Part shown: positions 51,094 to 53,435 of the stretch, one piece after another
Numbering within the stretch: position 1 is the stretch's first letter
Layout of the letters: every line of letters begins with the position of its first letter
Program-made: the position numbers and the translations under genes
NCBI RefSeq assembly: GCF_000515415.1
Contig: NZ_KI911783.1
Span: 4,578,392 to 4,642,391 of the forward strand
DNA from: Bradyrhizobium sp. WSM1417
Lineage (GTDB): Bacteria; Pseudomonadota; Alphaproteobacteria; Rhizobiales; Xanthobacteraceae
Direction of reading: 5' to 3'
Length of the DNA stretch: 64,000 bases
Notes under the pieces: generated by a model
What the model was told of the DNA's origin: nothing
Database searches by the model: none
Seen by the model: only the letters and a program-made list of their open reading frames with translations

Positions 51094-52149
51094 ATGTCGG
51101 AAGACAATTCGCCGGCGCAGGGCGCTATTCAGTCCCAAGGCGTCGTCACGCTCGAAAGCAGCTACACGCGCGGCCAAATCAACGGTGCATTGTCGCTGTC
51201 CGAATATGTGCTGAGCACGGGTTTCCAATCCGCGGGCGGCGAGGCGGTGCCGCTCGATGCCGTTGAGGTGATCCAGGGGGTCGCCATCAAGCTTGGGATA
51301 TTGGCCACAGGCGATGGATCAGCGCCGCGACCGGAGCGCAGCATTTCGGCGGCCGACTGGAATGATTTCGAGCGCGCCTATTATCGGCTCGCGGCTTTTG
51401 CGAGTCCGGTTACTGCGGAGACGCTTGATGCGACGCGGGCTATCACGTCGATCTCGGATGAATCAGAGACGTGGTGGAATCGTCTGATCGGCAATTCTCC
51501 TGCCCTGCGATTTGCGCGGCGGTTTTCCCTCGTCGCGATTGTTATCGCGGCAGCGATCTTGACCGGCGAATGCCTTGTCTACTACTGGGGTCTAGATGCA
51601 GACACGACGCGTTATGCTTGGCAGCGGAACCTGGCGCAGATACTTCTGCCCTGGGGCTACGGCGCCCTCGGCTCCTGCGCCTATCTGCTGCGATCGGCGC
51701 ACTATTTCATCTATCAGCGTTGCTTCGACTTGCGGCGCAAGCCGGAATACTTCAATCGCGTGCTGTTGGGCGCAATATCCGGCGGCGCGATCATATTGTT
51801 TGTCGACTATCTCGTCGACAGTGATAGCGGGGACACGCTGCATTTGAGCTCAGCCGCGCTCGGTTTCGTTGCAGGCTACAGCACCGACTTCTTGTTCAAT
51901 ACGATCGAGCGCATCGTGGCCGCGATATTCCCAAGGGACAACTCCGATCTGAACCCGAAGCAGCAAGTTGGAAAAACAGCCGCGCTCCCGAAGAAGCAGG
52001 CCGGCGATGGGTCGCCTGGCGAAGTTGATAAAAAGCTTGGAGAGGAAAGCGGAGCCGATGCCGAGCCCCGACGGCCGAGAAGCAGGAAGAGCTCGATTTC
52101 CCCTGCAGAGGGCATGGGCGGAGCGCCGGACGGGACGCAGAAAAAATGA
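51094..52149 (+). CDS. Membrane protein of unknown family, coupled to the DNase II-like gene
   Basis: The 351-residue protein has a soluble N-terminal part (residues 1-140, starting MSEDNSPAQGAIQSQ) with no recognised motif. Four likely membrane segments follow (about 142-165, 178-200, 225-243 and 254-270, containing RFSLVAIVIAAAIL, NLAQILLPWGYG, LLGAISGGAIILF and LSSAALGFVAGYS). The hydrophilic C-terminus (280-351) is rich in Lys, Glu, Ser and Pro. GGAG lies seven bases before the ATG. Its stop overlaps the start of the DNase II-like gene (ATGA), so the products are likely made in step. No function can be assigned; export, anchoring or self-protection are options. Confidence 0.75.
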   Translation: MSEDNSPAQGAIQSQGVVTLESSYTRGQINGALSLSEYVLSTGFQSAGGEAVPLDAVEVIQGVAIKLGILATGDGSAPRPERSISAADWNDFERAYYRLAAFASPVTAETLDATRAITSISDESETWWNRLIGNSPALRFARRFSLVAIVIAAAILTGECLVYYWGLDADTTRYAWQRNLAQILLPWGYGALGSCAYLLRSAHYFIYQRCFDLRRKPEYFNRVLLGAISGGAIILFVDYLVDSDSGDTLHLSSAALGFVAGYSTDFLFNTIERIVAAIFPRDNSDLNPKQQVGKTAALPKKQAGDGSPGEVDKKLGEESGADAEPRRPRSRKSSISPAEGMGGAPDGTQKK

Positions 52150-53435
52150 GGCCGGCTGAAGCGCGTGCTCCGGGGGGGTGGCGGCCGTTGCGGCTCCGGA
52201 TGATCAAGCTTCTCCTGGGCCTTGTGCTCACAGTCGCCGGTGGTTCGGCTTGGTGCGTTGAGGACGTGCCGCGTCCGTTGCTTGAAAAGGGCGGTCAACC
52301 AGTCGATTGGTGGTTCACTTTCAAGTTCAATGCTCAGAAGTCGTTCGCTGGCTGCGGTCCCGTCGAGGGACCGCGTGCCTGCATCTTCGGCGGCAAAGTA
52401 CGGGCAAAGGATCGCTTCGGACAGCAGTTCGCGTTCGCGAGCAGCAGCGCAAGCAAATTGAGCCAGGGTAAGGGCTGCGTCGGCGCCACGACCACCGATC
52501 CGGTCGGCGCCACCTTCGATCAGGTCTACAACGGTAGTTTCTTCTACCTGATCTGGAACGATCAGTTCTACGGCGATCCGATCAAATCGGCCAACTCACC
52601 ATGGGGCCATTCCAAGGGGTTGCTCGCCTGGAACGATGCAGGCGAGGGCTTTATCATGCAGGTTTCGACGCCGTCGTGGCCGGGTTCGGGCAGCCACCGC
52701 ATCGTTCGAAAGGCCGGCAACACTCTTGGATGCATCAGCAGCAACAACAATCTGCTGGCCAGCCAGCATTTCTTTGCGCTCAAGCTGACCAAGGACGATC
52801 TGGTCGAGGTTCTCAAGGGGCTGAAGGCGGCGGGCGTGGCGACCGATCCGACCAAGAAGCAGATCGTTCGAAATGGCGGTCCGGATGATGTTCAGGAACT
52901 GGTCGGCGAACTCGGTGAACTTCCGAAGAAGAAAAAGCCGAGCACCGCGACGGGAGATTTCTTCACCCGCCAGGATCTGTCGACCAAAGTCATCCTGATT
53001 GCCAAGACGGCGAGCCTTACCGCACCTCCCTGGGAGTTCGTATCGGCGGTCCTCAACGGCACCGCAGAGCGAAGCGCGACGTGGTGGACCAAACCCAAAA
53101 TTCCTTCCACCAACAAGAATTCGAAGGTGAAGTGCCTGGAGCCGTTCGAGTTGGACAAGAAACCTGGGCCGGTGGCCATCGCGTTGACCGGCGGATGGAA
53201 AGATCAGCCGATCAAGCTGAATGCGCCGTCCAACCACGCAAAGATCGGGGTCTCGAGCGCGGGCGGTCACAGCTACGTTATCTTTGGCGATCTGAATCAG
53301 CAGGGAGCATTGAATCCGCCAGGTTGCGAGAGAAGCCAGAACGGTCGCGGCGGCTTGTTTTTTGTGATCGACAACAAGGCCTTGCACGACAGTGTTGCCG
53401 AACTGATCGACGGCGATACGGCCGCGATGAAGTGA
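52146..53435 (+). CDS. Secreted DNase II-like endonuclease
   Basis: The 429-residue protein (signal peptide about residues 19-37, MIKLLLGLVLTVAGGSAWC preceded by an Arg-rich leader) matches the whole plan of metazoan acid DNase II. The order is GGQPVDWWFTFKFN near the mature N-terminus, NGSFFYLIWNDQFYG, HSKGLLAW with the first HxK at His155-Lys157, GFIMQVSTPSWPGSGS, TLGCISSNNN, then HAKIGVSS with the second HxK at His364-Lys366, and GDLNQQ with the closing RGGLFFVID. Both HxK motifs of the PLD-like active site are kept. An alternative start at 52200 (MIKLLLGLV) gives a shorter leader. The location is periplasm or outside. The GC-poorer codon choice of the later part hints at transfer. No immunity or secretion gene is recognised nearby except the coupled membrane protein. 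Confidence 0.75.
   Translation: MRPAEARAPGGWRPLRLRMIKLLLGLVLTVAGGSAWCVEDVPRPLLEKGGQPVDWWFTFKFNAQKSFAGCGPVEGPRACIFGGKVRAKDRFGQQFAFASSSASKLSQGKGCVGATTTDPVGATFDQVYNGSFFYLIWNDQFYGDPIKSANSPWGHSKGLLAWNDAGEGFIMQVSTPSWPGSGSHRIVRKAGNTLGCISSNNNLLASQHFFALKLTKDDLVEVLKGLKAAGVATDPTKKQIVRNGGPDDVQELVGELGELPKKKKPSTATGDFFTRQDLSTKVILIAKTASLTAPPWEFVSAVLNGTAERSATWWTKPKIPSTNKNSKVKCLEPFELDKKPGPVAIALTGGWKDQPIKLNAPSNHAKIGVSSAGGHSYVIFGDLNQQGALNPPGCERSQNGRGGLFFVIDNKALHDSVAELIDGDTAAMK

Follow-up and report, generated by a model that had tools for sequence, protein, structure and literature searches.

Within a 64,000-nucleotide stretch of the genome of Bradyrhizobium sp. WSM1417 (contig NZ_KI911783.1, positions 4,578,392 to 4,642,391; hereafter the window) lies an open reading frame (ORF) for a 429-aa protein of the acid DNase II family. 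We consider it probable that this protein is an exported, metal-independent nuclease of PLD-type fold, encoded in a two-gene operon with a membrane protein, and that it degrades nucleic acids outside the cell. In animals, acid DNase II serves to clear DNA in lysosomes. An earlier note, made from the letters of the window alone, had recognised the gene by its motifs and had thought bacterial members sparse and little studied; their novelty is lower than it suggested, because a bacterial DNase II was reported in 2003 from Burkholderia pseudomallei (as cited in excerpts of PMC4148230 and PMC4349608) and a structure in 2017 (doi 10.1093/nar/gkx222, as cited in excerpts of PMC10783504 and PMC11430429). 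The family has known bacterial members; the present branch looks little studied, and a literature search that was thin on subscription papers found nothing on it or on its membrane partner.

Family, motifs and predicted fold

The ORF and its DNase II-like motifs are present in the order described by the earlier note: DWWFTFK (residues 54-60), WNDQ (137-140), GHSKG (154-158), NHAK (363-366) and GDLNQQ (381-386). What had been pattern recognition is now supported by profile search, in which PF03265 (DNase_II) of Pfam-A matched at 72.9 bits (E 3.4e-20; curated cut-off 23 bits) and residues 48-421 were aligned to profile positions 5-320 of 326, that is, over most of the profile length and across both HxK motifs. 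DNase_II was the sole Pfam-A family for the protein at E up to 10, and an NCBIfam scan gave no family above cut-off. A hydrophobic leader, IKLLLGLVLTVAGGSAW, precedes the domain as had been read before; its best 10-residue Kyte-Doolittle mean is 2.81, by a home-made heuristic (a threshold of 1.8 over all open sequence ahead of the DWWF motif, not SignalP) that was passed by 44 of 51 aligned DNase II sequences. Translation may start at the ATG at 52146, which gives a 4-base overlap with the upstream stop, or at a second ATG at codon 19 (52200); codon 19 is GTG in the two nearest relatives.

The 51-row alignment (A3) contains the window, L008 and L003, and was made without the broken frames L057 and L058 and without L042, which occupies the same place as L003. 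A structure model predicted from it has a PLD-type fold and, compared by Foldseek, can be matched along most of its length to solved bacterial DNase II; solved DNase II was the best structural match by far, followed by PLD-fold phospholipases. Among the sequences of solved structures the lone plausible match was Burkholderia thailandensis DNase II (PDB 5i3e, 5unb), which has 20% identity to the window protein and was found at E 0.12 by phmmer with the single protein and at E 0.0082 with the 51-row profile, both HxK blocks being aligned. The two differ at LLHSWP of 5i3e, which is MQVSTP in this branch and has lost the His, and at DHAKWG, which is NHAKIG. For the related protein of B. pseudomallei no signal peptide is predicted, according to an excerpt of PMC4148230, whereas the window protein has a leader. 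The leader and the two HxK motifs are shared with animal lysosomal DNase II (DNASE2, DNASE2B), which carries a catalytic triad (H, K, H/N) in each half, a further likeness, and for which no eukaryotic structure had been solved as of 2022 (both as given in an excerpt of PMC9208542); here the host is bacterial and has no lysosome. The lysosomal 5' exonucleases PLD3 and PLD4 gave no sequence match at E up to 1, and a structural match far weaker than that of DNase II.

Across the 51 sequences W137-N138-D139-Q140 and G158 are invariant, as are both HxK motifs (Table 1). The catalytic histidines of porcine DNase II are His297 and His115, and His132 is named as a third crucial residue in the title of a paper that PMC11430429 cites (both from an excerpt of that source). 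His132 sits 17 residues past His115, and Gln172 sits 17 past H155; the 5i3e His was aligned by HMMER to V173, one position after Gln172, and is not kept there either. The likeness to the animal enzyme claimed earlier stands for both HxK blocks and is incomplete at the His132 counterpart, since none of the 51 sequences has a His at 168-176. At one catalytic position, then, this branch differs from both the animal and the Burkholderia enzymes. A takeover of the missing role by Gln172 is a guess; N384 is likely the third catalytic residue of the second half.

Table 1. Positions in the window of the gene pair and of the putative catalytic motifs (residue counts refer to the 51-row alignment).
Feature	Position	Strand	Remarks
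Upstream gene, 351-aa membrane protein	51094..52149	+	About 3 predicted transmembrane segments (hydropathy count); no Pfam match; stop overlaps DNase II start
DNase II family gene, 429 aa	52146..53435	+	Leader about 1-38; PLD-like half 1 with H155/K157; half 2 with H364/K366/N384
First HxK motif (HSK), codons 155-157	52608..52616	+	H155, K157 in 51/51; S156 in 47/51
Codon 172 (Gln)	52659..52661	+	Spacing from H155 equals porcine His115 to His132; Q in 51/51
Second HxK motif (HAK), codons 364-366	53235..53243	+	N363, H364, A365, K366 in 51/51
GDLNQQ, codons 381-386	53286..53303	+	N384 in 50/51, one row gapped

The membrane-protein gene and the genomic site

The stop of the membrane-protein gene and the start of the DNase II gene overlap in the sequence ATGA (52146-52149). 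The pair also occurs in two other Bradyrhizobium genomes, start and stop overlapping in G029, and by a single base in G193, where identity to the window is 57% for the membrane protein and 70% for DNase II. A relative of the membrane gene stands upstream of DNase II in G226 as well, its ORF ending early at 319 aa. The membrane-protein profile A2 was matched at only two of the 51 DNase II loci, L009 and L010, which are those of G226 and G029.

With a wider membrane-protein profile (A6), members were found in 13 of 195 Bradyrhizobium genomes, three of these being the pair itself. The neighbours of the others were surveyed, G016 being left out. In G184 and G231 the member adjoins a DUF2272 gene with a below-cut-off GH19 match (overlapping in G184); in G119 it adjoins a marginal CHAT gene (24.7 bits, cut-off 24) and in G213 an HD-domain gene, while a second membrane copy in G193 has TPR and nSTAND NTPase genes alongside. 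An Endonuclease_NS/trypsin gene (G148) and a CHAP gene (G122) lie 0.6-1 kb away from their members; those in G026, G110, G084 and G088 have no telling neighbour. Two Caballeronia plasmid copies had no hydrolase listed alongside, in an incomplete gene table, and further copies in Vibrio and Paraburkholderia lie in stretches without annotation. At L110 (G193:C1:5876000-5883000) there is a broken relative of the membrane partner with in-frame stops. PADLOC models, searched with DNase II and three membrane proteins, were matched by none of them, with no family for the window pair at E up to 0.01.

In the window the pair lies between the genes for AnmK and GST. The GST gene was searched in 15 Bradyrhizobium genomes, with a strong match in 13. 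AnmK and GST adjoin, about 90-160 bases apart and with the pair absent, in 8 of the 13; AnmK, pair and GST follow in the window's order in G029 and G226. A location of the G193 pair at an unrelated place was ruled out, as it stands on the other side of the same GST gene. In G005 and G187, 0.83-0.87 kb of other DNA with no clear gene separates AnmK from GST, and this showed no significant similarity to the pair of which it might have been a remnant. The AnmK-GST DNA at L111 and L117 (about 0.8 kb) is 91% alike, has an internal inverted repeat and no clear gene, and is perhaps a small mobile element. The GC content of the pair is 0.596, compared with 0.685 for AnmK, 0.628 for GST and 0.644 for the window. 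The pair looks like an insertion at a favoured site. A promoter and terminator scan gave nothing decisive.

Distribution and neighbourhoods of bacterial DNase II genes

A scan of 84,980 species, each represented by one genome, gave at least 51 DNase II loci; it relied on two peptide patterns, which makes the count a lower bound. The loci are spread over 8 phyla as judged from record titles, the phylum labels being provisional because many carriers are contigs of metagenome-assembled genomes (MAGs) and possibly mis-binned. Within Bradyrhizobium, profile A1 found DNase II in 7 of 242 genomes and a six-frame search with the Pfam model in only 4; across a sample of the phylum, PF03265 was found in 1 of 398 genomes, the window's own, which holds a single copy. 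No DNase II match was obtained among plasmids and phages at E 1e-5, and six pattern matches among viral contigs included no DNase II relative. Several carriers belong to acid-loving genera. Source names of several carriers denote acid sites (fen, bog, palsa) and those of others, such as Candidatus Scalindua, do not, these names being taken without a background count.

The nearest relatives of the window protein are those of B. nanningense (96%) and B. sp. Y36 (94%), and frame and motifs are intact in all four members of the clade. In a tree whose bootstrap had not settled, this clade, G193 included, stood beside an Acidobacteriota clade (support 84/81), and the other Bradyrhizobium genes (G018, B. 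sp. dw_411, B. mercantei) formed a clade of their own (100/100), grouped with beta-proteobacteria at 82/95, below the tool's support mark. Two separate entries of DNase II into Bradyrhizobium are suggested by the tree, and only suggested, because the approximately unbiased test did not reject a single Bradyrhizobium clade (p 0.0885).

Two side observations concern the N-terminus. The clade of L035, L048, L051, L053, L054 and L056 (support 99/97), with members from Bacteroidota, Planctomycetota, Verrucomicrobiota and Actinomycetota, falls below the threshold for a hydrophobic leader, so DNase II there may act within the cell. Longer open frames with extra N-terminal sequence hold the domain at L014:4437-6500 (688 aa) and L026:5566-7161 (532 aa).

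Neighbourhoods were based on a home-made ORF scorer, which predicted 309 neighbour ORFs, 31 of them chosen by eye for Pfam. At 12 of the 51 loci the gene next to DNase II encodes a small membrane protein of a second family: A4, with two repeats per protein, lies downstream in six beta-proteobacteria and Azospirillum (L024, L041, L047, L049, L050, L052, L059), and A5, with one repeat per gene, lies upstream in five Acidobacteriota (L019, L022, L032, L034, L045), as two tandem genes in four of the five. A4 and A5 are homologous (hhalign 96.6%, E 6.6e-10). Their repeated unit is roughly S..R.Q...T ... GIS..Y...K and had no Pfam match in six proteins tested. Homology of the window membrane protein to A4/A5 was tried and rejected (hhalign probabilities 2.4, 0.4, 0.2 and 0.5%). 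Over the 41 loci left after removal of 10 (the window clade included) because they were near copies or had broken frames, adjacent same-strand neighbours with at least two transmembrane segments numbered 16 of 46, compared with 36 of 266 background genes, which were countable in two pairs; the Fisher p of 0.001 is rough because neighbours are not independent. No adjacent membrane neighbour was seen at 25 of the 41 loci, and three of the 16 that have one (L015, L036, L055) resemble ordinary transporters or an oxidase by eye.

Pfam matches picked by eye within about 1 kb of DNase II included Tle1-like lipases (L011, L020, L030, L038), patatins (L016; L024, 0.95 kb off), RNase T2, S1/P1 nucleases (2), histidine phosphatase and PAP2; a caspase, which also matches a PADLOC model, lies 1.3 kb from DNase II in L016. 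The gene row of this Syntrophaceae MAG (L016:5187-10527) reads GH19-like hydrolase (below cut-off), DNase II, patatin and caspase, a compact cell-destroying set.

Proposed role and alternatives

The data show the family, the motifs, the fold match, the gene pair and a patchy distribution. In the mechanism that we propose, the protein would be exported through the Sec route and its leader removed, and its two HxK halves would come together in a single active site. As in porcine DNase II, H364 (the C-terminal histidine) would form a covalent phospho-histidine intermediate, H155 would donate and accept the proton, and cleavage would leave 3'-phosphate and 5'-OH ends. In soil or the rhizosphere its most likely substrate would be DNA outside the cell, and perhaps RNA, degraded for nutrients and/or in competition, with a presumed acid optimum. 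The membrane protein of the operon may tether, export or regulate the nuclease. Food, the DNA of biofilms or root traps, and attack on competitors may each be the benefit: lytic neighbours and the membrane-protein operon favour competition or controlled release, and nuclease and phosphatase neighbours favour scavenging.

Several results weigh against an exported nuclease of this kind, or against a nutritional use of it. With the His132 counterpart missing, catalysis or pH optimum may differ; 7 of the 51 sequences fall below the leader threshold; and the global Foldseek superposition was moderate (TM 0.52/0.63, root-mean-square deviation 9.2). One Pho box pattern had 2 sites in the window, compared with 2.95 expected by chance, and none near the operon, and therefore a role in phosphate starvation has no regulatory support. 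The lipase, patatin and caspase neighbours are of lytic or conflict type, and thus competition or cell death fits better than nutrition.

These neighbours bear upon a different reading, doubtful but deserving attention, which takes the pair for a module of conflict or lysis, made of a membrane protein and an exchangeable exported hydrolase and directed against competitors or used for programmed lysis. It would account for the overlapping genes in the window and G029 and for their retention in the diverged G193 pair, for the DUF2272/weak GH19, marginal CHAT, TPR with nSTAND NTPase, and HD-domain genes beside relatives of the membrane protein, for the A4/A5 association, for the enrichment in membrane neighbours, and for the Tle1-like lipases (4 loci), patatins (2) and caspase (1). 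However, no relationship of the window membrane protein to A4/A5 could be detected, its counterpart in G226 ends early, members in four genomes and, in an incomplete gene table, the two Caballeronia copies have no telling partner, PADLOC gave no match, and most loci have no membrane neighbour. Rather improbable is an enzymatically dead or non-nucleic-acid PLD-fold protein (a binding protein, phospholipase or other phosphodiesterase) that arose with the loss of the third His. That loss is universal in the alignment, phospholipases are the next structural matches, and a Trichinella member of the family has no DNase II activity according to an excerpt of PMC10249883; yet the complete retention of both HxK motifs and Q172, with N384 in all rows but one, would be unusual for a dead enzyme, and solved DNase II is by far the best structural match. 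We find it highly improbable that the gene is a horizontally acquired, degenerating passenger with no current function: its rarity in the genus, the low GC content of the pair, the bare AnmK-GST site in most genomes compared and the early stop in G226 would fit, but the intact frame and motifs of the four clade members, and the identity to the two nearest, would not.

A more speculative proposal, which we hold at low confidence, is that this branch supplies the effector of a two-part system not yet described. The two parts would be an unnamed membrane protein and an exported hydrolase that varies by exchange from genome to genome: DNase II here, and in G184 and G231 the DUF2272/weak GH19 protein, which is probably a peptidoglycan hydrolase. 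The hydrolase would be released or gated by the membrane protein, or the latter would confer immunity to it. DNase II would be linked separately to the unrelated repeat-type membrane protein in Pseudomonadota and Acidobacteriota, and the catalytic set would be H-K-Q / H-K-N rather than the animal H-K-H / H-K-N.

As regards the proposed exported nuclease, plants use extracellular DNA in defence at roots, according to an excerpt of PMC12640333. The natural swap, in a bacterial branch, of one of three "crucial" histidines would offer a test of which residues are needed for the chemistry, and from the recurring link to membrane proteins follows a concrete idea, open to testing, of how such a nuclease may be deployed in soil and on roots.
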